Source of the DNA: a virus | DNA: 28,915 bases | Strand: one strand, 5' to 3' | IMG/VR virus record: IMGVR_UViG_3300030101_001012 | Location: 1-28,915 of that record | Shown: one piece after another, positions 362 to 15,789 of the stretch | Layout of the letters: the number at the start of each line of letters is the position of its first letter | How positions within the stretch are numbered: position 1 is the stretch's first letter | The notes under the pieces: model-generated | Seen by the model: only the letters and a program-made list of their open reading frames with translations | Told to the model about the DNA's origin: nothing | Databases searched by the model: none | Made by a program: the position numbers and the translations under genes

Positions 362-3300
362 TATGTATTTGTTGTTGTAAATGTATTTGCAATTGTGCCT
401 CTGAATGATGTGTTTGCCCTTGTTATCATTGCCGTAAGCATTGCGCCGTTATCTTTATCTACTTGTGTTATCAAATTATATCCGCGATAAGGGTCAGACG
501 ATGTTGGATTGCTAGGGTCTACTAGAACGACTTTGCTGCTTGCCGTATCAAATTTAGATACATCCCATGTGTTAGCTGATGCGTCGTATGTTGCAGGAAA
601 TACAATAAAGTCGCCTGTGTCTGCGCCACTGTTAAACAGGCCGCCGGCCAATAAAAACTGAGTAGAACTGTCAGATATGCCGTCAAAGTATTTGCGTATC
701 GCTAACCGTAAAGGCTGCTTGCTGCTGCTGCCAAATGTTGCGGCTGCGCCAACTGTAAATGTCGTGCCGTTCCATATTACACCGTGTATCTGCGATGTGT
801 TAGCAGTTCTATCGTGCAAAGCCATTAGGCCTCTACCGTTTGTTATAAAGTCCGCAAAGTAGTAAAACCCATCTTGATTATTGCCAGACTTGAACAGTGT
901 GTCGCCAACTACTTCAAGAAGTGTGTTTGTGCTAGTATTATATTCATACACAGCATAATGCAATAATCCTGAAAAGCTGCTGCCTCCTGTAAAGTAAAAC
1001 GATGCGAAGCATTTTTTGCCACCTACTTCGCCTAGATTTATAATATGCGCACCGCCATGACCAGGCGATGAACCTGCACCTCTAGGATATAATATACCGC
1101 GCTGAGTAATTGCCTGTGTACTAATATTTAAATCATATACCCTTACGTATGGCGTTGCATTACTTCGAGTTAATCCTGTAGCTGCTAATGTATATACGTT
1201 TGCACTAGGCTCATTTATAACTATAAATTGTGTGCCTCTGTCTATATAATTTGCGGTGTCACCATCATTAATAGTAAAGTCTATCGTTACATTACTTGTG
1301 CCGCCTGTATATGTGCAAATTTTAAATACGTTGCCTGTACCTACTTCAGGAGATACCATAAAAAATTTATCATCTGTAAGTCTGCAAATACCTGCTGCTT
1401 GCCCACGACCATAAGGGTCAAAGTCTGCTGTATTGTTAAATGCAACCAAAGGTGTTGCGCTTGTTGTTAGTGTGCCACCGCTTTGCGTTAGTCCTATAAC
1501 TGTCCAATCTTGATTATCTGCGTTTGTTGCTTGACCTAGACTTGATATATAGCGGCCGCGTTTTAATTCAACAGGCCATTGATTTGTATTTGTGTTGTTT
1601 ATGCCTGTCAGCACGTTTTGCTGTGTGCCAACTGATGCAATTGCTGTTAATATTGCAGGCCCTATTTCTTGGCTAGATGCAAATGAATCAACAGCTAATA
1701 ATTCAACCTCAACCATCTGCTCGTCTAGCATAGGGTCAAAGTCTTTTACTTTGTTTATTATAAACCGCTGATTCATCAGCGTGTAATACTTTGTAAAATC
1801 TAGGTTAACGTACTCAGCGCGCGTCAATAATATTTTTGTAATTAGCGTGCGCGTCGTTATCAATTTGTCTAGCGTTGTTTTCCAAAACCGCTCGTATAAA
1901 CCATCAACCATTGTGACCGTGTTAGCGTTGTAAATACCTAGATTCACGTCATCAATATCATTGCTGTTTATATCAGTCAATGCGCCTAACCCAATAGCAT
2001 CAGACGCCTGCCTGGTTACACTTACATCGGCAACGTCTACATTCAGTATCGTGTCAAAGTCAGATACTTTAGTTACAATACTCGCACGGCTAGAGCCATC
2101 GCCTAAAGCTAAGTTTTCATCAGTGTGTGCGTATGGATTAACAGTCATGCAATTGTACATGAACGGATAACCTAGTTGTGTAATTGTAAAGCCAGTTGAT
2201 AATTCATATACCCATTGTCGCCAGGTCGGCGTAAATAAATATGCCTCAATGCCTGTAAATCTACTTGTCACAGGACTTATGAAATCTACGTGACGTGGCA
2301 TACCCATCGGCGCAGAACCAGACTTGAATACGAATAACCTATTTGCAAAAGTGTTGTCAGGGTCATAGGTAATTGATGTTGCCTGGTTTGCTTCATCTTC
2401 TGTAATTGGGCCAATAAACCCACGTGTGCGCACGCGGTCAAACTTAGCTTGATAAAACTTACTAAGGCTTGTGTTGAATGGCAACTGTATGTCTGTAATG
2501 CCTTCCTCATTATTGCTGTCTAAGTCAACAATATATCGCACTTCGGGTTGATTCACTGTATCGTCAGTTATGAAAGGGTACATATTTTCGTCAATAGGAT
2601 ATGTTTCAGTTCCCCATGACAAACGCACTTGACGCTTATAGTTGCCTGATTTGTATTGTATTTCCTGGTCTACGCTAACCTTATCTGACCAGTCAACAGT
2701 GCCAGAATAAAATCCGTTGTATGTAGTACCGTTCCATGATGTCCAATTTTCGCGCGGCTCAACCTTTAATGTAATGCCGTCAAAACTAAATACAAGGTTA
2801 AATGTTTTGCAAACATTCATAAAAAAGTCTAGCATTGTTACATCAGCAGGCAAGAAAAAACGCCAATCTTCCGTCGTGCCGAATGTGACGTTTGGGTAAT
2901 CGTCTTGACTACGGTCGCTGTAATATATGTTGTCAAAAAATCCGTGCGTTGCGTTACCAGTTAAAAAGTCGCTGTCTAGCTTAAATGCGTCAAAGCCAAA
3001 CACTTGTTGAACAAGCGGATTTGTTGCTGTGCCAAATATACCGTCAATCAAAAAGTCTAGCCTGAATGCAGGCCAAAAGTCTGTTCCCTTTGCGTTGCGG
3101 CTAGTGCCGTTGTATGTTTCAGTGCTGTCGTAATTGTTTGCATTGCTGTCGCTAAACTTGTACATATACGGATTGACGAATACATAGCTAGGGTCAGCAA
3201 TTGTGCGAGGGTCCGCTAGAACACGTGATAATATATTTAAATCTGTGTACGCTAGTTGCAAAACTGTGCCGCTCGTGTTTGTTGTCATATCAGACATTTT

Positions 3301-3678
3301 CAGCGATTGTAAGGCAACGACCCATGATTCATTTCCGCCTACAAATTGGCATTCAAACTCTAAGGCATTTGTGTTGCGTTTAGCTTTAAGTATGTACACA
3401 TATCCATCATCAATCACATTACCGTTTACAATTATTAAGCACTGTTGCTTATATACATTCAGCGCATCTATGTCTGTACCTATCACGTGCGCATATCCTA
3501 GTGCCTGCACATTTTCAGCAGTTGCAGGTATTTTAAAAGTCTTGCTAGACGTTTTGTTGCGTTTCTGTATGTCCTGCACTTCCGCAATTGATTTGCTCAA
3601 AGTGAAAGGAAAGTCGCCTTCACTGCCTAATGTGATAAATTTATTAGTCTGTTTTATGTATAGTTGCGCGGCCCTCAT
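361..3678 (-). CDS. Large tail-tip / baseplate protein with beta-propeller-like C-terminus
   Basis: This 1105-residue protein is the largest gene in the window. The first ~130 residues contain IAEVQDIQKRNKTSSKTFKI, a pattern I associate with baseplate or tail-tip proteins of Bacteroidota phages (an 'I-x-DIxKR...SKTFxIP.T..N' signature). Residues to about 680 look like the structural hub, ending with a section on placing and defining a region (LDFTKYYTLMNQRFIINKVK). The last ~400 residues are Gly/Thr/Asn-rich with repeating short beta strands and aromatic turns (SGLLHYAVYEYNTSTNTLLE, HGVIWNGTTFTVG), resembling a beta-propeller or repeat adhesin. I infer tail tip plus receptor binding. Its start is coupled by ATGA to the 59-aa gene upstream. 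Function is from pattern recognition, not from a search. Confidence 0.65.
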   Translation of the reverse strand: MRAAQLYIKQTNKFITLGSEGDFPFTLSKSIAEVQDIQKRNKTSSKTFKIPATAENVQALGYAHVIGTDIDALNVYKQQCLIIVNGNVIDDGYVYILKAKRNTNALEFECQFVGGNESWVVALQSLKMSDMTTNTSGTVLQLAYTDLNILSRVLADPRTIADPSYVFVNPYMYKFSDSNANNYDSTETYNGTSRNAKGTDFWPAFRLDFLIDGIFGTATNPLVQQVFGFDAFKLDSDFLTGNATHGFFDNIYYSDRSQDDYPNVTFGTTEDWRFFLPADVTMLDFFMNVCKTFNLVFSFDGITLKVEPRENWTSWNGTTYNGFYSGTVDWSDKVSVDQEIQYKSGNYKRQVRLSWGTETYPIDENMYPFITDDTVNQPEVRYIVDLDSNNEEGITDIQLPFNTSLSKFYQAKFDRVRTRGFIGPITEDEANQATSITYDPDNTFANRLFVFKSGSAPMGMPRHVDFISPVTSRFTGIEAYLFTPTWRQWVYELSTGFTITQLGYPFMYNCMTVNPYAHTDENLALGDGSSRASIVTKVSDFDTILNVDVADVSVTRQASDAIGLGALTDINSNDIDDVNLGIYNANTVTMVDGLYERFWKTTLDKLITTRTLITKILLTRAEYVNLDFTKYYTLMNQRFIINKVKDFDPMLDEQMVEVELLAVDSFASSQEIGPAILTAIASVGTQQNVLTGINNTNTNQWPVELKRGRYISSLGQATNADNQDWTVIGLTQSGGTLTTSATPLVAFNNTADFDPYGRGQAAGICRLTDDKFFMVSPEVGTGNVFKICTYTGGTSNVTIDFTINDGDTANYIDRGTQFIVINEPSANVYTLAATGLTRSNATPYVRVYDLNISTQAITQRGILYPRGAGSSPGHGGAHIINLGEVGGKKCFASFYFTGGSSFSGLLHYAVYEYNTSTNTLLEVVGDTLFKSGNNQDGFYYFADFITNGRGLMALHDRTANTSQIHGVIWNGTTFTVGAAATFGSSSKQPLRLAIRKYFDGISDSSTQFLLAGGLFNSGADTGDFIVFPATYDASANTWDVSKFDTASSKVVLVDPSNPTSSDPYRGYNLITQVDKDNGAMLTAMITRANTSFRGTIANTFTTTNT

Positions 3679-3854
3679 TGCAGTTTATCCATTGTTGTCA
3701 TCTGCTCAATCAACCAGGTAACTAATATGTCACATTGGTCGTATTCTAAATTCATTGAAAAAGTCGCCTCGTCATTATTATCAAAAGTGACGCAAATGTA
3801 GTTGTCAGCGTTGCGCAGCTTTGGGTACATTACTTTTATTTCTGCTGTTGTCAT
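3675..3854 (-). CDS. Small hypothetical protein between tail genes (59 aa)
   Basis: This 59-residue frame begins MTTAEIKVMYPKLRNADNYI and ends QMTTMDKLQ. It fills the gap between the 448-aa and 1105-aa tail genes exactly, with ATGA overlaps at both ends (start at 3854 overlaps the upstream TGA; its TGA at 3675 overlaps the next ATG). Perfect coupling at both ends is the main evidence that it is real. It is acidic with an amphipathic C-terminal helix (CDILVTWLIEQMTTM). I do not recognise a family; a small tail assembly or connector component would fit the location. Confidence 0.7.
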   Translation of the reverse strand: MTTAEIKVMYPKLRNADNYICVTFDNNDEATFSMNLEYDQCDILVTWLIEQMTTMDKLQ

Positions 3855-5197
3855 ACGTCTGCATATCTGTAAGTGAAAGACAATTTTTGCGCGCGGTTGT
3901 TTTTAATTACATCAACCTTGCCGTCATTGATTGTTATTCTACGAACACGCTCGTAACCAGTGTCCGGATGCGTCACGTCAAACGATGTACCAAATTCTGT
4001 ACTTGTATCAACAACATAATGCACTGGCGATGCGAAAAAGTCTAAAGCAATTTCACGGCCTTCCTCTGGTGTAAATGGCAGTGTGTTGTTAATTGTAAAC
4101 TCATATTCGCTTTTAGGATTGATTGCACGTTGCCGCGCACCTGTCAGTAGATATGCGCCTAAATCATTAGTGTTTGCCGCAAATGGGTCTGTATTAACTA
4201 GAGCAGTATTACCGCGACTGCTGATAACTGCTTCATTCGTTTTAGAATGTAAGGTCAGCGTTTCGTGTACGCCAAAGCGATTCATGTATATAAATGTCGT
4301 TGGGCATTTTATGTTGTGCTTTGCAGGGTTCAGAAACGTCATTGACGCAAATGCGCTGTCTGTTGTGTTGCTGATTGCAATGCCTACGCTAGTAAATACA
4401 CTGATAATTGTTGATACTGATACCGGCGTTGATGTACCTGTTAACACAAAGCCAGATTCGCCAGATGCAACTGATATATCCTGCAAGTCGCTTATAGATA
4501 CCGGCACTGAACATATCTTGCTTTGTTGGAATAGACCACCGGCTAACGTTGTATCAATTGTTGCAGTTGCGTATGAAGTATCGTTGACATATACTGTAAC
4601 ACTCATTCCGCCTGTAATGCCTAGCGGAAAATTAAAAAACGTCACACGGCTGTAATCAGATAGGAATACACTTGTCCGCCGGCCATCTCTAGGTTGAAAA
4701 AACGCTGTATCAAAAGCACCAAAGTCTTTACGTGAATACGGCAATGATGATAAGAAATATCTGTTGTCAAAGTATTCTTGCGCCGTACCTGTTGAATTAA
4801 ATACCTGGTGCTTTGCCTTTGTTATGTAAAAGCCGTTCGATGATAGTGTTGCGCTTGTTGTGCCGGTTGTTTCTATTTCAGTCATTTCAACTGCAATAAA
4901 CCTTAACAAATTGTCATAGTAGTGTATAGCAGGCGTTGCATCAAAACTTACTAAGTCGTCACGTATTATAGTTAGAAAGCTGTTGAGATAATCACTTACG
5001 TTAAACGTAAATTCGCTATTGATTAGCGGCGCAAAGTATGCCGGTACGTTAGACAACACTGTGCCGGTATTGCCATCTTTTACTTCAAACTTGATAAACT
5101 TGATGCTTGCGTTGTTGCTTGTTGCTTTTATTATGCACGGGTATTCAGATGACCAGAACGTGTTGCTGTTTGGTTGTGATGTTATAGTGATTGCCAT
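3851..5197 (-). CDS. Tail structural protein (448 aa)
   Basis: This 448-residue protein begins MAITITSQPNSNTFWSSEYP and is rich in Ser, Thr, Asn and aromatic residues with alternating beta-strand patterns, typical of phage tail structural proteins. It has no signal peptide or clear catalytic motif. Its N-terminus overlaps the HK97-gp10-like neck gene by 16 bases and its stop is coupled to the 59-aa gene that precedes the tail-tip protein. Order and composition suggest a distal tail or baseplate component that connects the tube to the 1105-aa tail-tip protein. The general class is fairly secure; the exact role is inferred. Confidence 0.6.
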   Translation of the reverse strand: MAITITSQPNSNTFWSSEYPCIIKATSNNASIKFIKFEVKDGNTGTVLSNVPAYFAPLINSEFTFNVSDYLNSFLTIIRDDLVSFDATPAIHYYDNLLRFIAVEMTEIETTGTTSATLSSNGFYITKAKHQVFNSTGTAQEYFDNRYFLSSLPYSRKDFGAFDTAFFQPRDGRRTSVFLSDYSRVTFFNFPLGITGGMSVTVYVNDTSYATATIDTTLAGGLFQQSKICSVPVSISDLQDISVASGESGFVLTGTSTPVSVSTIISVFTSVGIAISNTTDSAFASMTFLNPAKHNIKCPTTFIYMNRFGVHETLTLHSKTNEAVISSRGNTALVNTDPFAANTNDLGAYLLTGARQRAINPKSEYEFTINNTLPFTPEEGREIALDFFASPVHYVVDTSTEFGTSFDVTHPDTGYERVRRITINDGKVDVIKNNRAQKLSFTYRYADV

Positions 5198-5634
5198 TGC
5201 TTGCCGATTGTTGCTTCAAATGACGCTGCTGCGTCTTTACTTAGTTCTTTAATTATATCAGGCTGCACCTCTTTCATTGTGTCTTCAATAACGTGCAATT
5301 TAGATTCATCTAATGATGTGCCTCGTATTTTGCGCGGCGCGCCGTACTTGCCAATGTTTGCACGGATTGCCCACGCTGCCTCCTGTGGTATGCCTTTTGC
5401 TATACACCATTCTAATATCCTACTGTATGGCGGCTTTCCGCCAGGCTTGCGGCCTTTTTCTATGTACTGCCAATGGTCTGCACCGTAAAAGGTCAGCACC
5501 ATATCCGCGTCATCAAATACTGAATAGACCGATGATATACTGCGCTGTGTTGCGTTGCGGCCTTTTGCATTCATCGTTGCCTGCAATCCGGATATAACAA
5601 TCTCAGTTATTTTATCTGCGTTTACCTTAATCAT
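5182..5634 (-). CDS. HK97 gp10-like neck / tail completion protein
   Basis: The centre of the protein reads YIEKGRKPG, then ILEWCIAKGIPQEAAWAIR, then IGKYGAPRKIRG. This arrangement (FIExGRxPG...W...KGI...AWxIRxxIxxxGxP) is the signature of the HK97-gp10-like family, which joins head completion proteins to the tail. I place the start at the internal ATG at 5634 (MIKVNADKITE) rather than 5664, because it gives an 8-base overlap with the upstream TAA, whereas the longer version would add ten residues inside the upstream gene. The protein is then about 150 residues, normal for the family. Neighbours are another connector-type gene and the tail proteins. Confidence 0.72.
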   Translation of the reverse strand: MIKVNADKITEIVISGLQATMNAKGRNATQRSISSVYSVFDDADMVLTFYGADHWQYIEKGRKPGGKPPYSRILEWCIAKGIPQEAAWAIRANIGKYGAPRKIRGTSLDESKLHVIEDTMKEVQPDIIKELSKDAAASFEATIGKQWQSL

Positions 5635-6097
5635 TATGCACACAAAAGTCTGTTTCAACATCAACGTTGAATGTTACGTACAAAGCACACAAATTGAGTT
5701 GACTGCTGTAAGGTATGTGCCGCATCTCTAGGCCGCTTGTTACCTGTGTTTCAGGGTAATCGCTGACATTATCTAGCAGGCTAAATGTTAACGTTTCAAA
5801 GCTGTGCATCTTAGTCCACCAATAATCCCATCGGTTTACGGCTGTCACTGTTTGGTCTGCCTGGTGCAGGTTATCAGCTAACAGCAACACAACTTGATAC
5901 CTGATGTATTGTTCGTTATTATTCTCTACATCAGATATTGCAGCATTTTGCAGCATCAATCCATAATACGGCATAGCCTGGTTCGCTAGCTTGTTCAACT
6001 CGCTTTCATCCCAAATGTAACCGTATGACGTTATGCCATTTGCTGTAAAGGCGTGTTCTAACCGTGACTTGACTTTATTTAAAGAACCTAGTGCCAT
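5627..6097 (-). CDS. Putative head-tail connector / tail terminator protein (156 aa)
   Basis: It encodes 156 residues starting MALGSLNKVKSRLEHAFTAN. The size, mixed alpha/beta pattern and place between a small upstream gene and the gp10-like neck protein match the slot usually held by a tail terminator or tail completion protein. A conserved-looking core includes WDYWWTKMHSFETLTFSLLD, and the C-terminal half carries beta-strand patterns (LCALYVTFNVDVETDF). The start overlaps the upstream TAA by one base (TAATG). I cannot name a family with confidence; function is inferred from position. Confidence 0.5.
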   Translation of the reverse strand: MALGSLNKVKSRLEHAFTANGITSYGYIWDESELNKLANQAMPYYGLMLQNAAISDVENNNEQYIRYQVVLLLADNLHQADQTVTAVNRWDYWWTKMHSFETLTFSLLDNVSDYPETQVTSGLEMRHIPYSSQLNLCALYVTFNVDVETDFCVHND

Positions 6098-6438
6098 TAT
6101 TCGCCGTTCCTGTGCAGCATAATTAGAAAACCAGTTGTTGTCACAAACGGCATCATTGGCTCGTCTACATCTACTTTTTCCGCTTTTGTTTCAAGCACCG
6201 GTGTGACTGATACAATTTTATATCCGCCAAATGGGTTATTTCTTAGGTCAAAGTCATTTAACAGTCTATCCATTTCCCTAGTTATTTCATTATCGCGGCT
6301 CATTGCTCGCAACGCATCTACTGATGTGTCCATTTTTTTATGCTTTGTTTCAATTCTGTCGCGCTTGTCGTGTATGTTTTGCTCTTGTTGTTTTACTTCC
6401 TGGTGAGTCACTGGAAGGAATAGTATTCTTAATGACAT
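6097..6438 (-). CDS. Hypothetical protein, first gene of the neck/tail operon (113 aa)
   Basis: The 113-residue product has a charged helical segment at about residues 13-60 (VKQQEQNIHDKRDRIETKHK, possible coiled coil) followed by a beta-rich part ending MPFVTTTGFLIMLHRNGE. It is the first gene after the 329-bp non-coding island, so it probably lies just downstream of a late promoter, although I found no clean TAnnTTTG element in front of it. A minus-strand TATATTTA at about 6456-6463 differs from the consensus at the last base and has no good TTG partner. It sits where head-tail adaptor proteins are often found, but no family is recognised. Confidence 0.6.
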   Translation of the reverse strand: MSLRILFLPVTHQEVKQQEQNIHDKRDRIETKHKKMDTSVDALRAMSRDNEITREMDRLLNDFDLRNNPFGGYKIVSVTPVLETKAEKVDVDEPMMPFVTTTGFLIMLHRNGE

Positions 6439-6520
6439 TGTATATCGTTTGCACTAAATATAATGAATAAAAACTGAAACCGTTTTTGACCTGTATGTTA
6501 CATTGTTTTGTTTTCTATTA

Positions 6521-6556
6521 TATTCTTTTAGCATTGCAGCAGCATTGCAGCAGCAT
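6521..6556 (+). repeat. 11-bp tandem repeat TGCAGCAGCAT x2 with leading arm
   Basis: TGCAGCAGCAT occurs at 6535-6545 and again at 6546-6556 with no spacer. It is preceded at 6524-6534 by TCTTTTAGCAT, a degenerate unit. The stretch 6521-6537 (TATTCTTTTAGCATTGC) matches 15048-15064 at 16 of 17 bases, and there too it leads into 11-bp repeats. The period of about one helical turn is typical of protein-binding iterons. Confidence 0.55.
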
Positions 6557-6621
6557 ATTTTGTAAGTGTAAGATATTGTCTTATATTAGCACAGGAAGAA
6601 TGTTTCTTGTGTTTAGTTCAT

Positions 6622-6663
6622 AGCCTCTACCCTAACCAATGCCGGACGGGTAGAGGCTTTTTT
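6622..6663 (+). terminator. Rho-independent terminator, plus-strand direction
   Basis: A perfect 11-bp inverted repeat, AGCCTCTACCC (6622-6632) and GGGTAGAGGCT (6648-6658), encloses a 15-nt loop and is followed by TTTTTT. In the minus direction the hairpin is followed by ATGAACTAAA, so it should not stop minus-strand transcription. It therefore marks the end of a plus-strand transcript that starts within the preceding ~180 bases. Confidence 0.8.
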
Positions 6664-6677
6664 GTTATATTAGATAT

Positions 6678-6767
6678 ATGGACTTACAAAGCATATTGAT
6701 TATTGTCTTCTGCACCGCTTACATCTTAGGAACATTCTATTGGGTCGGCCGTACTATGGACGATTGA
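6678..6767 (+). CDS. Possible 29-aa single-pass membrane peptide
   Basis: The frame ATG...TGA encodes MDLQSILIIVFCTAYILGTF followed by YWVGRTMDD, a single hydrophobic segment of about 17 residues with a short polar tail. It ends at 6767, exactly one base before the TerL stop codon (6768), in convergent orientation. The start context is A/T-rich (TTAGATAT before ATG) as in neighbouring genes. Against it: it is tiny, lies just downstream of a plus-strand terminator and would need its own promoter. If real it may be a small lysis or membrane modulator. Treat as a candidate only. Confidence 0.3.
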   Translation: MDLQSILIIVFCTAYILGTFYWVGRTMDD

Positions 6768-7922
6768 CTACTTTATACTAAACGCTCTACTGCTGTGCAG
6801 CTTTGTGTATCTGGCTGCGTCAATAGCGTGGTCTAGGTATTTGCGCGGCGTGTCTAGCATTATGCCTGACCTAGTGCGCTCGTAGACATAGTTGCGTAAC
6901 TCCTTGATAAGATTGATTGACCGCTTAGTTACAACAAACGGCTTTGCCTTCATCATAGCTAGGCCGCCATCTACTGAGCCTCTAAACTTTTTAACTCCCA
7001 TTATTTGCACGCCGTTTTGCCCTAGCTGCCGTATCACTGTTTCGTGCGATGGGTCAGCCACAACCATCCGCCTGACATCGCCTGCACGTATAACAGCCAT
7101 TAACTTGTTAAAGCCGAAGCCTGGCTCATAATGTATTTCATCGTAATAATCTATGCCATCGTGCTGCCATAGGTCAACAAGCGTTGACGGATTTGCTTCG
7201 CCAAAGTCCATTCCGGAACAGATGTAACGCGCGTTGTCTGGCAAATTACCAATAGACCACACAGACGGCGGAAATATAACTCCTGACGGTGTACCTATTT
7301 CTCCAAGACCAAACACATTGTACCAATCTTTGTCGTGCTTCCTGCTTTCTATGTTGTCAATTGTAACCTGGTCAAGTGCTTCGTTGTGCGTATAGTTTAG
7401 TTTCACAAAACGTAGCTTTTCCCTAAATTCCTCATCAGGGTGTCCAAGCAATTCAGTGTGTGCCCAAAACTCGCTGACAGGGTTAAAGTCAATGATTGAC
7501 CATTTGCGCGTCCGTATAAACAATTCACTCCACGCCTCGTATCCTATATTGTTCGCCTCGTTAACAAATAAGTAGTCACGCCGCGCGCCTCGCAGCTTAT
7601 CACTTTGGTCAGCACTAAAAAACTCAAACGTCGCGTTCTTTATCTTGTACGTGTGGCTTGACTTGTTGTGCTGCCGTGCTTTGTACATATTGTTGTCAGT
7701 TAGTATCGTAAAGAAATCGCGCATTGCGCCACGCCTTAAATGTGGCAATGATTCTGATACTATACTGATAAGGCCGGTCAGGCTGCTTTTGTGTGCCGCT
7801 AGAATTAAGTATTGCAACACCGCGTAAGTTTTGCCTGCTGATGTGCCACCTTGTACAATTACAATGCGTCCATCTGCTTGTATGGCCTCGCCTACTTCGC
7901 CAAATGCTGTCGTCGTTTTCAA
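6768..7922 (-). CDS. terL: Terminase large subunit
   Basis: This is the ATP-driven DNA packaging motor and nuclease. The 384-residue protein has a Walker A motif GGTSAGKT at residues 25-32 and a Walker B-type strand DYLFVNEAN at 116-124, where the catalytic carboxylate follows an Asn. The C-terminal RNase H-like nuclease is visible as GMDFGE (D239), VVADPS (D290) and YLDHAIDAARY (D364, D368). Length is on the short side but complete for Terminase_3/6C-type enzymes. Its start overlaps the TerS stop (ATGA). It is the last gene of the ParB-glycosyltransferase-dioxygenase-TerS-TerL run, so packaging and DNA modification are probably co-expressed. Confidence 0.95.
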   Translation of the reverse strand: MKTTTAFGEVGEAIQADGRIVIVQGGTSAGKTYAVLQYLILAAHKSSLTGLISIVSESLPHLRRGAMRDFFTILTDNNMYKARQHNKSSHTYKIKNATFEFFSADQSDKLRGARRDYLFVNEANNIGYEAWSELFIRTRKWSIIDFNPVSEFWAHTELLGHPDEEFREKLRFVKLNYTHNEALDQVTIDNIESRKHDKDWYNVFGLGEIGTPSGVIFPPSVWSIGNLPDNARYICSGMDFGEANPSTLVDLWQHDGIDYYDEIHYEPGFGFNKLMAVIRAGDVRRMVVADPSHETVIRQLGQNGVQIMGVKKFRGSVDGGLAMMKAKPFVVTKRSINLIKELRNYVYERTRSGIMLDTPRKYLDHAIDAARYTKLHSSRAFSIK

Positions 7923-8281
7923 ATGTTATCTAGTACGTCTAATGAAATTTGCGACATTGGCTGAATTACAATTTGCGGCTCGCCAGTGTTTTCTATTTCC
8001 TGCCGTTCAATGTAGCCGCGTTTCTTGCCTTTTGTTTTCAAGTAGAATATTGTCGCTGCTGTACTGCCATCTTTAATCTGCTTGTGAAGGCTAGATTCGG
8101 CAAAGTCTAAGGCAATATCCTCAACATCGTTTATAGCTACCTTGTACGCATTGTCCTCGCGCATCCATCTGTAATGTGTTTCACGGCTTATTCCTACGGC
8201 TTTGCACGCACTGGTAACTATACCCAATGCTTTTTCCATAGCTTCAATCATCGCTTTTTTATTGGTGTCAGTTTTTGTCAT
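7919..8281 (-). CDS. terS: Terminase small subunit
   Basis: It recognises the packaging start and loads TerL. The 120-residue protein carries an N-terminal helix-turn-helix, ALGIVTSACKAVGISRETHY followed by RWMRED (about residues 18-43), typical of HTH-type small terminases. It then has an oligomerisation-type helical part (ALDFAESSLHKQIKDGSTAA) and TIFYLKTKGKKRGY, a motif I associate with this family. It overlaps TerL by four bases and is coupled to the TET/JBP dioxygenase upstream by another ATGA, an unusual neighbour for TerS. Confidence 0.88.
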   Translation of the reverse strand: MTKTDTNKKAMIEAMEKALGIVTSACKAVGISRETHYRWMREDNAYKVAINDVEDIALDFAESSLHKQIKDGSTAATIFYLKTKGKKRGYIERQEIENTGEPQIVIQPMSQISLDVLDNI

Positions 8282-9081
8282 ATTCCTTTAAATGCTTTTA
8301 GTGGATAAAATATAAAGCTATTGCGATAGCCGCCTGCTGCTGTTGGCACAATTGGCGTTACACCGTGCACGTTTCGCCAGGCAGGATAAACAAGCATTGA
8401 ATTATCTGCTTGCTCGAATGTTGCATTGTAGTCAGGCACATTTAACGCGCCGCCGTTGCTGTTGTTGCGCTTAGTAATTATCACGTTGACTGCGCCTACT
8501 AAGTTAGCTGTATCTCTATGAAACGGTGCAGGTATGTTGTAATTCGATATGCTGCTTGTAAACAAGTTGCCGAATCGCCACTGTTGCGGCACGTCCTCAA
8601 ATAGTTGTACCTGCTGCTCATAAATGTTTGGCGTTATCTGCTTTATTATTTGCTCGCTTTCTAGTGCAGATGCTAACATTGCTTTGATGAATGTCTGTGC
8701 TTTTTTGTCTTGGTGTACACTGCTCATACTAGGGTACGGCATCCTCATGTGTGGTTTAGGTGCACGGCTGCCGAGTATTGTGCTGTATTGCGTAACTAAT
8801 GTTTTACCGGTTGCTTGTCGCTTTGCTTTATCTTTCTTGCTGCCTTGTGGCCCTCTACTCATTTCTTGCTTTGGCACATTGTCACTCCTAAATTCTTTGT
8901 TCGCTATTGCAATAAGCTGCGTCAGCCTGGTGCTATACTTGCCAATGTCAGCAATGTAAAAGCCAACTATTTCGCCGTCAGCCTCTAATAAGCAATCTCT
9001 AGTTATGTTTGGCTCATAATATGGGCACTGCTGTCCAATCTTTACGTTATGCTCTACCTGTTGCAGTTTAATTGTTTCCAT
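8278..9081 (-). CDS. TET/JBP-family 2-oxoglutarate/Fe(II) dioxygenase
   Basis: Enzymes of this family oxidise the methyl group of 5-methylpyrimidines in DNA, for example 5mC to 5hmC. In this 267-residue protein I see FTSSISNYNIPAPFHRDTAN (H188-x-D190 iron ligands), a GGALNVPDYNATFEQADNSM strand region, the distal iron ligand in NVHGVTPI (H239), and YRNSFIFYP, where R253 fits the 2-oxoglutarate-binding arginine. The HRDxxN ... GGxLxxPxY ... HGVTP order is the phage TET/JBP signature and differs from AlkB or prolyl hydroxylases. The ~170-residue N-terminal part contains a basic linker (GSKKDKAKRQATGK). The gene follows a TET-associated glycosyltransferase (28-base overlap) and precedes terS. 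The family call is strong; the actual substrate is not shown. Confidence 0.85.
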   Translation of the reverse strand: METIKLQQVEHNVKIGQQCPYYEPNITRDCLLEADGEIVGFYIADIGKYSTRLTQLIAIANKEFRSDNVPKQEMSRGPQGSKKDKAKRQATGKTLVTQYSTILGSRAPKPHMRMPYPSMSSVHQDKKAQTFIKAMLASALESEQIIKQITPNIYEQQVQLFEDVPQQWRFGNLFTSSISNYNIPAPFHRDTANLVGAVNVIITKRNNSNGGALNVPDYNATFEQADNSMLVYPAWRNVHGVTPIVPTAAGGYRNSFIFYPLKAFKGI

Positions 9082-9890
9082 TGCTTTATCTGTTTAGGGT
9101 TATTGAAACGCAGTTGCAATTCTGCTTTAGGATGGCAACCTTTCTTACTTTTATATCTAAAAAAATTAGGGTATTTGTGCATCAGGTATGCGCTGTCTAC
9201 AATCTTTCTGTCTACTCGTTGCTCATACGTGCCGATGCCGCCTGGTTCGTAATGGCCGGCAATAGGTTTTATCCATGAATTTATAAGCACGCAATTATTT
9301 TTAATTAGCTGCTCAGCACAATACCCAAAGTCCTCCATCGCTTCTAGCTTTGTATCATATTGCAGTCCGTTGTATTTGATAGCAACAGCCTTTGATATTA
9401 CATAGCCGACGGTCTTGTATTTTTTAGCGTTAAAAAAGTAATTATCTACCGTTGCATAACCTATGTATTCTGCTTTTATTTTTTCCGCTATGGCAATATC
9501 TGCCTCTAGCAACTGCATATATTCTTTCGCAGTAAACTTTTGATATATAGTTTTTTGTGTTATGTCTGCACGCGATACGTCGATTTGTTTGCAGGTATTG
9601 TAGTATGTATCATTAAACCGCTTAAACCCTTTGATATTGTCATCTAGTGATACGTACCACTGACCACGTACTGCTAGATTCTGCACAATGTAATTCCTTT
9701 GATTTGTTATGCCTGGTGCAACATTAGTTACAATGATATCAGATGCTGCAACTCTGCCAGATGCAACATAAGCATCGCGGCATTTTTCAGTGTGCACTAA
9801 AACCTTGTAAGGTATATTGTCCTTATCAAGCCATTGTGTTGTTGATATAGTGTCTGCTCTATTGTACGATGGTATGTATATCGGTATCAT
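9054..9890 (-). CDS. TET-associated (TAGT-like) DNA glycosyltransferase
   Basis: The 278-residue protein looks like a GT-A fold glycosyltransferase of the group found next to phage TET/JBP genes. Visible motifs are IPIYIPSYNRADT at the N-terminus (nucleotide-sugar binding, PSYNR at 7-11), VLVHTE (30-35), APGITNQRN (58-66) and the metal-binding SLDDNIKGF (81-89, DDN in place of DxD). A downstream acidic segment, KLEAMEDFGYCAEQL, could hold the catalytic base. The expected role is to add a sugar to hydroxymethylated bases made by the adjacent dioxygenase. Its start overlaps the ParB stop (ATGA), and its last 28 bases overlap the dioxygenase start. The sugar donor and acceptor base cannot be read from sequence. 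Confidence 0.78.
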   Translation of the reverse strand: MIPIYIPSYNRADTISTTQWLDKDNIPYKVLVHTEKCRDAYVASGRVAASDIIVTNVAPGITNQRNYIVQNLAVRGQWYVSLDDNIKGFKRFNDTYYNTCKQIDVSRADITQKTIYQKFTAKEYMQLLEADIAIAEKIKAEYIGYATVDNYFFNAKKYKTVGYVISKAVAIKYNGLQYDTKLEAMEDFGYCAEQLIKNNCVLINSWIKPIAGHYEPGGIGTYEQRVDRKIVDSAYLMHKYPNFFRYKSKKGCHPKAELQLRFNNPKQIKQWKQLNCNR

Positions 9891-10453
9891 ACTTTTCGCA
9901 TTGCCTCTAGCACAATGTGTCCGATGTTTTTACCGTTGCTTCTAGCTTCGTTGATTAACTTGTACGCCTCATCGTAGTGTTCTATGTCAAACTCTATTTG
10001 TATTGCTTTCTTAACATTGTTGCTCATATCTGCAACATCGCCGTCTACGTCTAATTCGTCTAGTATTGAGTAATCTACTTCATCTTCTGGCTGCCATACG
10101 TCTAATCCCCAATCTGCTAAATCAGTATTTGCCCATTCATTAGCCAACAAATCCCAATCCCAACTTCCATATCCTACATTGTCCTTGATAACAAACTGCT
10201 TTTGTTCTGCCTCTGTTAAGTCAGTTGCATATACCACCGGCACTTCCTTCAAACCAATGTGTTGACAGGCCAGTAATCGCATATTACCGCCGAGCACAAC
10301 ATTATCTGCATTGACAACAATAGGTCGCAGTTCTAGCATTTGCGGAAATTCCTCAATAGAACGTACTAGTTTATCAAATTTGTCTTTGATTATTACGCGC
10401 GGATTGTTTGGGTTCTGCTTGATAGCAGATAATTTTATTATTGTAGTTTTCAT
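9887..10453 (-). CDS. ParB/Srx-domain protein associated with DNA modification genes
   Basis: The N-terminal ~115 residues form a ParB-like nuclease (ParB/Srx) domain: LSAIKQNPNNPRVIIKDKFD, then PIVVNADNVVLGGNMRLLAC, with the GGNMR (55-59) phosphate-binding motif in place of GxRR. In phages this domain is often fused to an adenine or cytosine methyltransferase. Here the protein is only 188 residues and ends in a short alpha/beta tail (KKAIQIEFDIEHYDEAYKLI), with no SAM-binding DPPY or PCQ motif. The middle is acidic. It is coupled by ATGA to the secreted peptidase upstream and to the glycosyltransferase downstream. It may nick or bind DNA, or couple modification to packaging; the exact role is unknown. 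Confidence 0.8.
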   Translation of the reverse strand: MKTTIIKLSAIKQNPNNPRVIIKDKFDKLVRSIEEFPQMLELRPIVVNADNVVLGGNMRLLACQHIGLKEVPVVYATDLTEAEQKQFVIKDNVGYGSWDWDLLANEWANTDLADWGLDVWQPEDEVDYSILDELDVDGDVADMSNNVKKAIQIEFDIEHYDEAYKLINEARSNGKNIGHIVLEAMRKV

Positions 10454-10965
10454 CGTACCTTGAATATATTGTTTTTTCTATATAGTTGTATGCAGTCACG
10501 GCCAATTACATCATCAGGGTCAATTGACAAACCTTGATATCGTATTTCATAATGCAGGTGTGGCCCTAGTGAATTACCGGTGCTGCCTACTATGCCCACT
10601 GCATACCCTTGCCTAATCCATTCGCCCTCTGTAACTAGCAATTCCCTTAAATGTGCATAGTAAGTTTCTAAACCATTTAGGTGTGTTACTATGACCAGGT
10701 AACCATATCCGCCATTATATCCTTTCTTAGCGTATCGTACACGTCCTAACCAAGAACTGTAAACCGTATCTCTATTATTGTGTGATATGTCTAAACCGTG
10801 ATGTATTCGTCCGTTCCTGTAACCGTGTCCACTAACTAGTACACCGTCAACAGGATAGTGTATATCTGTAAGGTGTAGTGTTGCAGTATCTGGCAAGCTG
10901 ACAGGCCTGTAATGTATTTGCGCCTGCACACTAACCGCAAAAAAACTCAGTATTATAAATCGCAT
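10450..10965 (-). CDS. M23-family (LytM-type) peptidase with signal peptide
   Basis: Zinc metallopeptidases of family M23 cut peptide bridges in peptidoglycan. The 171-residue protein starts with a short hydrophobic signal sequence (MRFIILSFFAVSVQAQ, likely cleaved after AQA) and has all the M23 zinc and catalytic elements: HHGLD (H56, D59), YYAHL (H105) and LGPHLHYEIR (H136, H138). The presence of all key residues suggests it is active. It overlaps the upstream amidase by 13 bases and couples to ParB by ATGA. A signal peptide means export by the host Sec system to the periplasm, so it could help lysis or act as a virion-associated wall hydrolase. Confidence 0.88.
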   Translation of the reverse strand: MRFIILSFFAVSVQAQIHYRPVSLPDTATLHLTDIHYPVDGVLVSGHGYRNGRIHHGLDISHNNRDTVYSSWLGRVRYAKKGYNGGYGYLVIVTHLNGLETYYAHLRELLVTEGEWIRQGYAVGIVGSTGNSLGPHLHYEIRYQGLSIDPDDVIGRDCIQLYRKNNIFKVR

Positions 10966-11843
10966 AACATATCTAATAACTCTTGCTGTGGAAACATATC
11001 GCTCTTATATTTGTTCGTGTTGCTGTGTGTCCATAAACCTTTTATCCTGCCGTAGTACGCATCTACGTTCCACTCAAATGCTGCTGCACCTTTTTGTTTT
11101 ACAAGTTCTGGCAAGCCTTTGCGCACGTCTATGTTATCGCGATTGCCTATAAATTCAATCAGGTGCTTTAGTGCGTTCAGTTGCTTTTCGCTGTATCTGT
11201 GCCAATACTGTTTATTTTTAAACGGTTTGTCTAGCTTAACAATCTGTTCATCGTGTACTTTATATCCTGCGTAACATTTACCGTCTACAATGTAACTGAA
11301 GTTGCACACCTCAATTCCAACGCTGTCTGTGTGCATTGCCTGGTTTCCGTTCTTGCCTAAATGCCAGGCATAGCCGCCGTCTGGTATGCACTTTACAATT
11401 TCGCCATCGTATTCAAAATCTGTGTTAAATATTGACGGGCCTCCAATAACAAACTCGGTTGCAATCCGTCCACGCTTATCACGTCCCCAATTGTCTATGC
11501 ACTTGTAAGGGTTATGCCATCCTGCCGTATGATGCAGAAATAGATACTCCTTTTTCGTAGGCCCTTCCAAGTACTCGCCTTTTGGCAAGTAGTGGTTTCT
11601 AATGTCTATGTCTGCAAAGTGTTCAGGCTGCGCATCTGCTTCTTGCTTGTCTGTGGTTGCTAGTTGCAACATTGTCCAGGTCTTAGGGCCAACAATACCG
11701 TCTGACCATAGTCCTGTGTTCTTTTGGTATTCCTTTACAAAGTGTTCTGTAATCGGCCCAAATATGCCGTCAACGTCAATGCCTAATGCCTCTTGAATGA
11801 CGCGCACATTGTCGCCGGTGCATCCTTTATATAATACTATCAT
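10953..11843 (-). CDS. Endolysin: N-acetylmuramoyl-L-alanine amidase (Amidase_2) with peptidoglycan-binding domain
   Basis: The N-terminal ~60 residues form a PG_binding_1 domain (VRVIQEALGIDVDGIFGPIT, SDGIVGPKTWTML). Residues ~95-285 form an Amidase_2 domain with zinc ligands in LFLHHTAGW (H104/H105), GLWTHSNTNKYKSDMFP (H273 and D282), and the core strand SVGIEVCN. It cleaves the amide between MurNAc and L-Ala. There is no signal peptide, so it needs a holin for release. The holin-like gene is about 9 kb away at 20.3 kb. Length (296 aa) is normal. The domain order, wall-binding first, is less common than the reverse. Confidence 0.9.
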   Translation of the reverse strand: MIVLYKGCTGDNVRVIQEALGIDVDGIFGPITEHFVKEYQKNTGLWSDGIVGPKTWTMLQLATTDKQEADAQPEHFADIDIRNHYLPKGEYLEGPTKKEYLFLHHTAGWHNPYKCIDNWGRDKRGRIATEFVIGGPSIFNTDFEYDGEIVKCIPDGGYAWHLGKNGNQAMHTDSVGIEVCNFSYIVDGKCYAGYKVHDEQIVKLDKPFKNKQYWHRYSEKQLNALKHLIEFIGNRDNIDVRKGLPELVKQKGAAAFEWNVDAYYGRIKGLWTHSNTNKYKSDMFPQQELLDMLCDL

Positions 11844-12467: not shown

Positions 12468-12660
12468 AGGTTTTTACAACTGCTGTCATTATTTTTTGCA
12501 CAACTTCGTCATTCTTCATCAATGCTAGCAACGCCTCCGCGCATTTGTTAGGCTCGCCGTGCAAACCTGCTGTCACCAGGCCCTCACTATTAACGTACAC
12601 GACAAGCGCGTGGTCTACATTTTGTGGCACAGCGTCCTTTATTTTTTGCCGCAATCCCAT
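12442..12660 (-). CDS. Small hypothetical protein (72 aa)
   Basis: It encodes 72 residues starting MGLRQKIKDAVPQNVDHALV. The composition suggests an alpha/beta fold with a helix rich in Ala and Leu (KCAEALLALMKNDEVVQKIM). The start overlaps the SSB stop by one base (TAATG), tying it to replication genes. The layout (VDHALVVYVNSEGLVTAGLHGEP) resembles small phage proteins that often accompany SSB, but I cannot name a family. Confidence 0.6.
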   Translation of the reverse strand: MGLRQKIKDAVPQNVDHALVVYVNSEGLVTAGLHGEPNKCAEALLALMKNDEVVQKIMTAVVKTYEKPEGTV

Positions 12661-13031
12661 TAGAACGGTAAATTGTGGTCATAGGCTGTGTCTGCAACTT
12701 CTTGCCTTTCTTGCTTGTTGTTGCTGCTAATAAATTCAAAGCTGACTACCTCTACGTCAACAGCGTACCGGTCAATTCCATTTTTGTCTTGATATTTTCG
12801 ATGTCGAGTCTTGCCTTCTATGTAGATTTGGTCGCCTTTATTAACGTACTTATGCAATGTTTCGGCTGTTTTGCCATAGCTGACTACATTGTGCCAATCT
12901 GTGCGTTCTTGCTTTTCGCCGTTCTTTGTCCAACGCTCTGACGTTGCGACGCTAAACTTACAGATTGTCGTACTTGCATCAACGATTTCTGGTTGTTGTC
13001 CAACCCTTCCTAAAATTAACTGCTTGTTCAT
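12660..13031 (-). CDS. ssb: Single-stranded DNA-binding protein
   Basis: SSB coats single-stranded DNA during replication and recombination. The 123-residue protein has the full OB-fold pattern: MNKQLILGRVGQQPEI, then CKFSVATSERWTKNGEKQER, TDWHNVVSYGKTAETLHKYV and KGDQIYIEGKTRHRKYQDKN. The C-terminal tip reads DHNLPF, a variant of the usual DDDIPF tail that recruits host replication and repair proteins. One Asp is replaced by His and one by Asn, which may weaken host contacts. The linker is very short, as in many phage SSBs. It is flanked by small genes with TAATG/ATGA coupling, downstream of dnaB. Confidence 0.93.
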   Translation of the reverse strand: MNKQLILGRVGQQPEIVDASTTICKFSVATSERWTKNGEKQERTDWHNVVSYGKTAETLHKYVNKGDQIYIEGKTRHRKYQDKNGIDRYAVDVEVVSFEFISSNNKQERQEVADTAYDHNLPF

Positions 13032-13515: not shown

Positions 13516-14820
13516 TTAATAAGGTAAAATATCAACATTGTCAACAATCCAATTATCGTACCGACTACTTTTGCCAACAAATTGTAAGTCACAAACCAAA
13601 CATTCGCCCTCACGATTCTTTTTTATAATACCATACGCTTTACTTTTTTCAGTCTGTCCGCCGCGTATAGGGTCATCATTTAGTTCATAATATTCTGGTC
13701 GGTACAAAAAGGTTACCGTGTCAGCATCCTGCTCAATGCCGCCAGATGCACGCAGGTCGCTTAGTTGTGGCACTTTATCTGGCCTTGATTCTACGCTTCT
13801 GCTTAACTGGTGCAGCAATACAATCGGTATGTCTAACTCGTTTGCCATTGCGTGAATGTTTTTAGAATTTTGCGTGACGCCTCTGTACTCGTCGCCGCCG
13901 TCATCCATTAAGCCTAAATAATCCATGACTAGAATAAACTTGCCGTATTTAGCACGCCACTTTAAGCACTTAATTCTAAGCTGCGCAAAGTTAATGCTCG
14001 GTGTATCGTCAACCTCAAAGTCTAATTGCTGCATCTGTAAATGCGCTTTGTCGTACTTCCTACGCTCGCTGTCATTTATCCTGTTCAGTCGTAACCGCTC
14101 TGTCTGTATATCGCTTAAATACGATTCAACACGAAGTGCAATTTTATCTCTTATCATTTCGCCAGACCAAAAACACACAGGCAAATGCTGACAAGCATTA
14201 ACTGCAATACTAACTGCAAAAGCAGTTTTTCCCATAGCCGGCCGCGCCGCAACTACGTGGACGCCGGTATATAATCCGCCAATTGCTTTATCCCATTTGT
14301 GCAAACCTGTCGGCACTCCCATCATACCGCCTTGCCTATTGCTACGCTCTGCAAGTTCACGATTGATAATAGTAGCCAGGCGTTCAGGCTTTACCTGCTC
14401 AAAACTTGTTGTCATTGCATTTACACGCTGCTGCACGTTGTCTAACAAGTCGCTGACTTTTACGTTATCTTTTTCAGCTTCTTGTGCAATCATTAAACCC
14501 ATCATACACAGGTCGCTTTTTATTGCACTGTTTTTTAATATCCAGGCGTGACTTTCAATATTTGCTGAACTGCCTACTTTGTTAGTCAATGCTGCTACAT
14601 CATAGGCTTTTACCTTGCTGCGCTTTTGCTTCAGCTTATCGCATACCGTCAGCAGGTCAATCGGCTTGCCGTCTGCGTTTACTTCTACAATTGCCTCGTA
14701 TAAATCTTCGTGCCAACCGGTAAAATAATCTGGCTGTAATATATTTGATACAACATGATACGCATCTTTTTCCATAAGGATTGCACCTAGTACAATCGCC
14801 TCAATTTTAACTTGTTGCAT
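13516..14820 (-). CDS. dnaB: Replicative DNA helicase (DnaB family)
   Basis: The hexameric helicase unwinds DNA ahead of the phage replication fork. The 434-residue protein has an N-terminal DnaB domain (IEAIVLGAILMEKDAYHVVS) and a RecA-type C-terminal domain: Walker A RPAMGKT at 193-199, Walker B FILVMDYLGLM with D300, HQLSRSVE around 337-344 and DLRASGGIEQDAD at 355-367. All parts needed for activity are present. The start overlaps the replisome organizer stop by one base. A phage-encoded DnaB next to a loader/organizer and a DnaA-like protein suggests self-directed origin firing with host polymerase, as no phage polymerase is in the window. Confidence 0.95.
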   Translation of the reverse strand: MQQVKIEAIVLGAILMEKDAYHVVSNILQPDYFTGWHEDLYEAIVEVNADGKPIDLLTVCDKLKQKRSKVKAYDVAALTNKVGSSANIESHAWILKNSAIKSDLCMMGLMIAQEAEKDNVKVSDLLDNVQQRVNAMTTSFEQVKPERLATIINRELAERSNRQGGMMGVPTGLHKWDKAIGGLYTGVHVVAARPAMGKTAFAVSIAVNACQHLPVCFWSGEMIRDKIALRVESYLSDIQTERLRLNRINDSERRKYDKAHLQMQQLDFEVDDTPSINFAQLRIKCLKWRAKYGKFILVMDYLGLMDDGGDEYRGVTQNSKNIHAMANELDIPIVLLHQLSRSVESRPDKVPQLSDLRASGGIEQDADTVTFLYRPEYYELNDDPIRGGQTEKSKAYGIIKKNREGECLVCDLQFVGKSSRYDNWIVDNVDILPY

Positions 14821-15410
14821 CAGGCAAATTTATAATTTGGTTTGTTATTGTTTTCTTTGTTCCACCAGGTGCGCGCTGTTGACTTCCAATTTTTTACTTC
14901 TAAACCGTTGCTTTTTAACCAACCTTGTGAATCGTAGTACAGAAAAAACTTAGCAGCATCCATCACGCTTTTGCCATTTTCAGTAAAGTAATCTGTTACC
15001 TGCTTTTCTGTAGGTTTAATAAACGTCTTTTGTTTTACTTTCTTTTTTATTGTTTTAGCATTGCCGTTGCTATGCTGTTGCATTGCTGTTGCATTACCGT
15101 TCCATCGCTTGCGTGCTTTTTCTTGTGCTGTTTTGCTTCTATTCTGTGCGCCTTCTACCTCCTCACAAATCCAATCAATAACAACGTTATCATCATGTAT
15201 TTGTACAAAACCGCGTTTCATTAGCCTGTCTATTGCCTGGTCGTTACGTATATATTCACGCAACAATTCTTCGTCTACATCGCCTTCGCGTGTGAATAAT
15301 AAATTGCAACAGTCAATAAATGCACCTTTTACTTCGTGCGATTCTAGCATTATGCGTCCGGTCAACCAGGTTTGCGGATAAAATTTAAACCACTTCAGAG
15401 CCATCGTCAA
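14820..15410 (-). CDS. Replisome organizer / helicase loader-like protein
   Basis: The N-terminal ~85 residues (WFKFYPQTWLTGRIMLESHE, VKGAFIDCCNLLFTREGDV) match the winged-helix type of phage replication initiators. The middle is a Asn/Gln-rich linker (ARKRWNGNATAMQQHSNGNA) encoded by 11-bp tandem repeats, and the C-terminus (FFLYYDSQGWLKSNGLEVKN, then TARTWWNKE) matches the C-terminal part of DnaD/phage O-type replication proteins. It probably binds the origin and delivers the DnaB encoded just downstream. The repeat-bearing linker is reminiscent of lambda O, whose gene carries the origin iterons. Two starts are possible (MTM or MAL, two codons apart). Confidence 0.72.
   Translation of the reverse strand: MTMALKWFKFYPQTWLTGRIMLESHEVKGAFIDCCNLLFTREGDVDEELLREYIRNDQAIDRLMKRGFVQIHDDNVVIDWICEEVEGAQNRSKTAQEKARKRWNGNATAMQQHSNGNAKTIKKKVKQKTFIKPTEKQVTDYFTENGKSVMDAAKFFLYYDSQGWLKSNGLEVKNWKSTARTWWNKENNNKPNYKFA
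15048..15105. repeat. Run of ~11-bp iteron-like repeats inside the replication gene
   Basis: On the plus strand five consecutive 11-mers can be laid out from 15051: TGTTTTAGCAT, TGCCGTTGCTA, TGCTGTTGCAT, TGCTGTTGCAT, TACCGTTCCAT. The two middle units are identical. An 11-bp period is out of step with codons, so protein repetition alone does not explain it. The leading 15048-15064 matches the repeat arm at 6521-6537 at 16 of 17 bases. A replication origin within the initiator gene is plausible. Confidence 0.5.
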
Positions 15411-15789
15411 GTAAATTTTTAATTACATTTAATCTGCCTCCAATTGTTGGCTTTCCTTCTAGCAATTCTAAAACTTTCAAGGCCTTATCGTGCTGTGCGT
15501 CGTTATCGTTGCGCTTCATATAGTAGACAAAATCTGCATATCTGTTAGCATACTCCTGGTCTGTGTCCATACGGTCATTAAACTTTTTAATTGAATTTAT
15601 TATCGTGGCGTGGTCACGGTGCAACGCGCTGCCTATCTGTTTTAAACTCATATCAGTTTCATCTCTAAGAAAGTTGCACATAAATTGACGCATTTCTATA
15701 AACCTTTTAGTCCTATCTGCGCAGGTCATATGTACCTTTCCAAGTCCGTAATTTTCTTCAATACGTTTAAAAACGTGTCTAATATCCAT
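15385..15789 (-). CDS. DnaA domain IV-like DNA-binding protein
   Basis: DnaA domain IV binds DnaA boxes through a helix-turn-helix. Here TKRFIEMRQFMCNFLRDETD then MSLKQIGSALHRDHATIINS (about residues 27-66) reproduces the DnaA signature, including the RDHAT (58-62) form of the RDHSTV motif. The protein is only 134 residues and has no AAA+ domain, so it is a stand-alone DNA-binding module. It overlaps the replisome organizer by 26 bases. A role in origin recognition or in competing with host DnaA is likely, but unproven. Confidence 0.75.
   Translation of the reverse strand: MDIRHVFKRIEENYGLGKVHMTCADRTKRFIEMRQFMCNFLRDETDMSLKQIGSALHRDHATIINSIKKFNDRMDTDQEYANRYADFVYYMKRNDNDAQHDKALKVLELLEGKPTIGGRLNVIKNLLDDGSEVV

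Follow-up and report, generated by a model that had tools for sequence, protein, structure and literature searches.

Which chemistry does a phage apply to its DNA when it encodes a TET/JBP dioxygenase and a glycosyltransferase side by side between a ParB gene and the terminase genes, and is this chemistry fixed? The question is raised by a locus in IMG/VR virus record IMGVR_UViG_3300030101_001012, which we analyzed over its whole length of 28,915 bases (hereafter the window) and which, as one whole record of only this size, is probably a fragment of a phage genome. Five open reading frames (ORFs) on the minus strand make up the locus, in the order ParB, TAGT-like glycosyltransferase, TET, small terminase subunit (TerS) and large terminase subunit (TerL):

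9887..10453, minus strand: ParB_N protein (ParB/Srx-fold), 188 amino acids, constant gene of the cassette (PF02195, E = 3e-6; PHROGs 498 and 620)
9054..9890, minus strand: TAGT-like GT-A glycosyltransferase, 278 amino acids, in the exchangeable decorator slot (PF20691, E = 5.6e-6, just below the cut-off; phrog_842, E = 3e-13)
8278..9081, minus strand: TET/JBP Fe(II)/2-oxoglutarate dioxygenase, 267 amino acids, predicted 5-methylpyrimidine hydroxylase (PF12851, E = 6e-10)
7919..8281, minus strand: TerS, 120 amino acids, travels with TET (phrog_4044 and phrog_309, E about 1e-8)
6768..7922, minus strand: TerL, 384 amino acids, TTG start (PF04466, E = 4e-7; phrog_2, E = 3e-28)

The answer to which the analysis points, with a probability of roughly 75%, is an operon with which a tailed phage would hypermodify its DNA after replication, adding an exchangeable cap. 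As family and fold suggest, the TET/JBP enzyme would first hydroxylate the 5-methyl group of a pyrimidine in the phage DNA, most likely converting thymine to 5-hydroxymethyluracil (5hmU) and less likely 5-methylcytosine (5mC) to 5-hydroxymethylcytosine (5hmC). The TAGT-type enzyme would then place a sugar on the new hydroxyl, and the resulting base, similar to base J or to glucosyl-5hmC, would block host nucleases. This second enzyme is encoded in a slot that comparison of related loci shows to be exchangeable, and the same hydroxyl handle would accordingly receive different caps in different phages. Escape from restriction systems recognizing one particular cap is the likely driver of the swaps.

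An exchangeable slot between ParB and TET

The ORFs lie exactly as an earlier note on this DNA, made from the sequence alone, had described them: overlaps of 4 (ParB/TAGT), 28 (TAGT/TET) and 4 bases (TET/TerS) lead into TerS and TerL, which overlap by a further 4. The 28-base overlap is a trait of the TAGT allele type found in the window; in most other alleles the overlap with TET is 4 bases. A scan for promoters and terminators gave no excess over shuffled sequence.

Two scans of viral contigs yielded 120 loci with TETs 61 to 78% identical to that of the window; the survey thus extends to TETs down to 61% identity with the window protein and to a few cultured phages, and further slot types may exist. 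Since ParB, TET and TerS occur in the identical order in 96/96 loci holding all three, and the catalytic residues are invariant in all 122 TETs (see below), the gene arrangement is not due to chance. The gene between ParB and TET, on the other hand, encodes a glycosyltransferase in 87 cases (the window counted), a small P-loop kinase in 15 and an FkbM-type methyltransferase (PF05050) in ten, one of which belongs to the cultured Prochlorococcus phage P-HS2. The glycosyltransferases themselves fall into diverse groups that are often less than 30% identical to one another. Two loci, L111 and L115 (TET at 366-1217 and 706-1488, respectively), have no slot gene at all and ParB directly abuts TET; the hydroxymethyl base may remain uncapped in these phages. 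In L027, L028, L031, L032 and L034 there is an insertion between TET and TerS, in the form of one gene of 145 amino acids (L027) or two small ones (74 and 105 amino acids).

Closely related pairs of contigs revealed how sharply the exchange is delimited. L012 (glycosyltransferase) and L014 (kinase) are 91.5% identical at the DNA level up to the slot border, share no similarity across the slot and are 92% identical again from the TET start. The same pattern was observed for L019 (kinase) and L020 (glycosyltransferase), with 92% identity before the slot, none within it and 96% from the TET start, as well as for L088 and L085, with 94% over 2.8 kb, none across the slot and 96% after it. In the latter pair one glycosyltransferase replaces another: the L088 slot holds a TAGT of the window type (73% identical), the L085 slot a distant glycosyltransferase. 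Among pairs with TETs 80-90% identical, the slot gene is less than 40% identical in 80% of pairs, compared to 0% for ParB, 1% for TerS and 31% for TerL by the same measure. Even in pairs at 97% identity or above the slot is swapped in 22%, the neighboring genes in none. On the TET tree, a quick tree that makes such counts approximate, the slot type changes 15 times, and at least 11 of these changes are forced by branches with SH-aLRT values of at least 95.

We therefore hold with very high confidence that the slot between ParB and TET is exchangeable and that the swap is precise at the gene borders. Chimeric metagenome assembly could in principle produce similar patterns, and all pairs in which the swap was seen at the DNA level are indeed metagenome contigs. 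However, dozens of swapped pairs stem from many samples, frames and short overlaps are kept, the breakpoints fall at gene borders and such breaks are not seen in the neighboring genes. FkbM also occupies the slot in P-HS2, a cultured phage with a complete sequence, and an assembly artefact is very improbable indeed.

Phage DNA modification is usually presented as a single fixed chemistry per phage. A conserved hydroxylase, ParB and TerS combined with an exchanged capping gene turn diversification of the DNA coat into a measurable evolutionary process, and the near-identical relatives provide naturally paired alleles for asking which restriction systems each cap defeats.

Slot occupants and the hydroxyl they would share

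Unrelated as they are, glycosyltransferases, kinases and FkbM methyltransferases all have a hydroxyl as their known or expected acceptor. Because three hydroxyl-acting types interchange beside a constant TET, the latter is best read as leaving a hydroxymethyl group that the slot gene would cap, and a TET-made hydroxymethyl base fits all three predicted enzyme types.

By hhalign (probability 96.6%, E = 7e-10), the slot kinase shares homology with actinophage proteins (Ploopntkinase3) that carry the annotation 5-hmU DNA kinase. The PHROG family phrog_800, named terminase small subunit, matches a 5-hmU DNA kinase (E = 2e-28). In L114 the slot (3712-6014) is expanded to four genes encoding a glutamine-amidotransferase-like protein, a GNAT-like protein, an ADDT amino acid:DNA transferase (PF18724) and the kinase, and L116 carries the same ADDT transferase and kinase. 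ADDT was found in these two relatives only, the kinase in 15. Both families belong to the thymidine hypermodification pathway (PMC6449724, PMC11955845). ADDT was not found in the window, whose slot holds a glycosyltransferase, so that the window itself lacks the kinase/ADDT combination of this pathway.

The dioxygenase is a TET/JBP protein

The profile searches proposed in the earlier note placed Tet_JBP (PF12851; 39.0 bits, cut-off 34.9) and ParB_N (PF02195; 27.6 bits, cut-off 26.3) above the Pfam cut-offs and TAGT (PF20691; 26.9 bits, cut-off 27.5) just below. The dioxygenase motifs expected of phage TET/JBP enzymes were present as HRDTAN, GGALNVPDY, HGVTP and GGYRNSF. Residues H188, D190, N193, H239 and R253 are invariant across all 122 TETs of the clade; H188, D190 and H239 are predicted to form the HxD...H iron triad and R253 to be the distal arginine binding 2-oxoglutarate.

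AlphaFold2 models were made from alignments of the window proteins with their relatives on viral contigs. The dioxygenase model (pLDDT 87.6) aligned over its whole length with NgTET1 (Z 18.8, root mean square deviation 2.6, 209 residues) and TET2 (Z 18.2, root mean square deviation 3.5, 242 residues), while FTO (Z 14.4), AlkB (13.2) and PHD2 (13.0) ranked lower. A grouping with AlkB or prolyl hydroxylases, which the earlier note had named as the outcome that would speak against a TET, was thus not observed, and these families and FTO were set aside as nearer kin of the protein. The clade profile gave TET2 chains as best matches in the PDB, weakly (E = 0.03) and with the HRD motif and the distal histidine and arginine aligned. 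Taken together, profile and modeled fold identify the window dioxygenase as a TET/JBP family member that is predicted to oxidize its substrate.

The name queuine tRNA-ribosyltransferase, which PHROG and GenBank give to the dioxygenase, was rejected, as both Pfam and the fold indicate a TET; TET/JBP proteins carry this apparent misnomer in phrog_6059 and in the RefSeq phage records NC_020847 and NC_011044. A scan of genome contigs with the TET alignment gave no cellular or prophage relative, and hosts can for this reason not be read from prophages.

The slot glycosyltransferase and its acceptor

All motifs that had been claimed for the glycosyltransferase (PSYNR, VLVHTE, GITNQRN and DDN) were found, and Asp84 of the DxD-like DDN motif is invariant in 30 aligned sequences. 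The AlphaFold2 model (pLDDT 89.5) adopts a GT-A fold with Z scores of 13-15 to GT-A enzymes of varied function. No glycosyltransferase of the window type was found in cultured phages by tblastn.

The sugar acceptor of such an enzyme could also be the host surface or a virion protein, in which case the gene would sit in a hot spot for phage accessory genes. The GT-A fold, common to wall, lipid and protein glycosyltransferases, gives no indication of whether the acceptor is DNA, lipid or protein, and this weighs against a DNA-directed role together with the marginal Pfam TAGT score of the window protein, just short of the cut-off. On the other hand, the gene overlaps both ParB and TET, relatives carry the 5-hmU DNA kinase homologue or the FkbM methyltransferase in its place, and TAGT is matched by most of the slot glycosyltransferase groups scanned, several relatives scoring above the cut-off with up to 51.3 bits. 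We consider a non-DNA acceptor quite improbable on these grounds. The earlier note had asked whether the protein belongs with cell-envelope enzymes instead; the fold, a generic GT-A, does not bear on this, and only the neighborhood and the Pfam TAGT signal point to DNA. If DNA is the acceptor, the slot supplies many diverse candidate DNA glycosyltransferases.

Thymine or cytosine as the oxidized base

Hydroxylation and glycosylation of a 5-methylpyrimidine in the phage DNA is, judged from profiles and models, a highly probable function of the TET/TAGT pair. The earlier note had proposed that methylated bases are oxidized and then glycosylated, and this order is still the best reading of the two genes; cytosine as the substrate was not supported. 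A search for C5-methyltransferases (PF00145) gave matches in control genomes but none in the window, itself a fragment, in 26 related contigs (19-37 kb) or in nine complete cultured TET phages. Likewise, thymidylate synthase/hydroxymethylase (PF00303) was absent from the 32 records searched. With neither family found, a hydroxymethyl base would have to arise on the polymer, and as neither phage-made 5mC nor a nucleotide incorporated by the PF00303 route is indicated, the simplest explanation is that thymine is oxidized directly. Thymine, giving 5hmU, is accordingly the moderately favored TET substrate on present sequence evidence.

The competing route, in which TET would convert 5mC, supplied by a methyltransferase of the host or by a phage gene outside the sequenced part, to 5hmC for glycosylation by TAGT, is unlikely but deserves to be kept in view. 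Oxidation of 5mC by phage TET is the case backed by biochemistry (Burke et al. 2021, as described in PMC12730594 and PMC11404850), the dioxygenase has the HRDxxN motif of TET2 type, and C5-methyltransferases occur in some possible hosts. Host methylation, however, is confined to recognition sites, which would leave protection sparse, and the slot partners come from thymine-hypermodification families in addition to the missing methyltransferase genes. The asparagine of HRDxxN was tried as a discriminator between cytosine and thymine and proved of no use, as TET2 itself has it.

Several observations count against the favored reading. Most related records are fragments, and a C5-methyltransferase may be encoded elsewhere in the phages or their hosts; in the genus to which a relative of the P-HS2 host belongs, 42 of 151 genomes carried such genes, and the simple kinase-slot contigs have no ADDT transferase. 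The single genome with the MED4 primer site had no C5-methyltransferase.

We propose only tentatively, at somewhat less than even odds, the full combination of a phage pathway resembling base J synthesis, in which TET would act on thymine and TAGT would glycosylate the product, with a capping enzyme swapped in one slot and TerS and ParB constant. If true, the caps would comprise many sugars, a phosphate or amino acid and a methyl ether, amounting to a serotype-like switch in DNA chemistry. The pointer to thymine from the missing C5-methyltransferases makes glycosyl-5hmU in phages directly testable, with a cultured relative at hand.

ParB and the terminase genes beside the cassette

The terminase subunits matched PHROG families at E values of 1.5e-8 (TerS) and 3e-28 (TerL), and the two behave differently among the relatives. 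Identity correlates with that of TET at Spearman coefficients of 0.81 for ParB, 0.58 for TerS and 0.24 for TerL. Between TETs 80-90% identical the median TerS identity is 90%, whereas between TETs 75-80% identical the TerL median is 21%. As ParB tracks TET, TerS does so less and TerL little, the inherited unit is ParB-slot-TET-TerS, placed beside different TerLs, and TerL evolves largely independently of the cassette although adjacent to it. For the window TerL, the nearest terminases are those of Flavobacterium phages (38%), which makes a host among the Bacteroidota likely.

The constant ParB-X-TET-TerS order (X, slot gene), a TerS that follows TET far more closely than TerL does and the recurrence of ParB and a modifying enzyme beside the terminase in other phages would all be expected if the cassette were tied to packaging, either with TerS or ParB recognizing modified DNA for selective packaging or with modification coupled to packaging. 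This evidence is synteny only, however, and short, tightly linked genes co-recombine. Moreover, TerS and ParB stay unchanged when the slot chemistry switches, which argues against their recognizing the cap itself, and Arthrobacter phage Prairie and Synechococcus phage S-CBWM1 have a TET without an adjacent terminase. A packaging role, which the earlier note had suggested in the form of modification timed to packaging and of ParB recruiting or checking modified DNA, is thus rather unlikely.

Other genes of the window

TerL is separated from the portal and head genes (21557-23143) by about 14 kb that include replication and lysis genes. The replication genes include:

13516-14820: DnaB
12660-13031: SSB
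16843-17325: Rad52-like protein

A protein of 134 amino acids with a DnaA C-terminal DNA-binding domain (15385-15789; PF08299, E = 4.5e-12) is encoded near the DnaB helicase. Just upstream of ParB (10450-11843), two genes for peptidoglycan enzymes adjoin each other, an M23 peptidase and an amidase with a peptidoglycan-binding domain. For the two large ORFs downstream of TerL, 361-3678 (1105 amino acids) and 3851-5197 (448 amino acids), neither Pfam nor PHROG gave a match under the thresholds applied.

Comparison with known systems

The combination of TET and glycosyltransferase, from which the TAGT family takes its name, is already known in phages. Phage C5-methyltransferase/TET/glycosyltransferase systems that hypermodify cytosine (Burke et al. 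2021 PNAS), as far as described in PMC12730594 and PMC11404850, resemble the window in encoding TET/JBP enzymes together with glycosyltransferases predicted to act on polymer DNA; they differ in that no C5-methyltransferase was found in the window clade, whose decorator gene occupies a single swappable position between ParB and TET. Neither an exchangeable capping slot, for which priority is uncertain, nor glycosyl-5hmU in phages was found described in the open literature covered, which did not include Burke 2021 and Iyer 2013. Glucosylated 5-hydroxymethyldeoxyuridine (5hmdU) was stated to be unreported in phage genomes as of 2019 (PMC6449724).

The earlier note had known of no described case of the gene order, which is only partly right, as public records hold ParB-TET-TerS-TerL in mycobacteriophage Nigel (GenBank), where no capping gene is evident beside TET, and ParB-X-TET-(107-amino-acid ORF)-TerL in P-HS2. 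Other actinophages carry ParB-TET-hypothetical-terminase (Margaery) or ParB-TET-aGPT-PPlase-5hmU DNA kinase-hypothetical-terminase (Wooper), and Tonitrus is similar to Wooper with the terminase further on. Like the window, these TET operons have ParB upstream and the terminase downstream of TET and no C5-methyltransferase. Their TETs are only about 30-34% identical, however, decorators, where seen, lie downstream of TET rather than between ParB and TET, and no glycosyltransferase is annotated in the TET blocks. Arthrobacter phage Prairie (L124) has ParB, TET, a glycosyltransferase and a glucosaminyl deacetylase in a row (3658-7158, with one small ORF) and no terminase nearby, which suggests a deacetylated amino sugar on its DNA. 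Bacteroides phage BS-TP3 carries ParB-methyltransferase-TerS-TerL. ParB with a DNA-modifying enzyme and the terminase is thus an arrangement wider than the window and partly present in public records.

Cultured counterparts are the Prochlorococcus phages P-HS2, MED4-184 and MED4-117, which share the P-HS2 order and whose TET is 50% identical. In P-HS2 the slot gene is an FkbM methyltransferase instead of a glycosyltransferase and the host is a cyanobacterium; its 107-amino-acid ORF had no Pfam match, and the one PHROG that it hit is of unknown function, which would make a TerS label one of position alone.

The proposed chemistry resembles kinetoplastid base J synthesis (JBP1/2 and base J glucosyltransferase), a eukaryotic and epigenetic system in which a hydroxylase is likewise followed by a glycosyltransferase and which the window would also match in needing no methyltransferase if the substrate is thymine. 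Phages M6, ViI and phi W-14, with their 5hmdU DNA kinase and alkylamine or amino acid transferases, share with the window clade the kinase and ADDT families that also occupy the slot. For these phages, 5hmdU is assumed to enter the DNA during replication (PMC6449724), whereas in the pathway proposed here TET would make it on the DNA.

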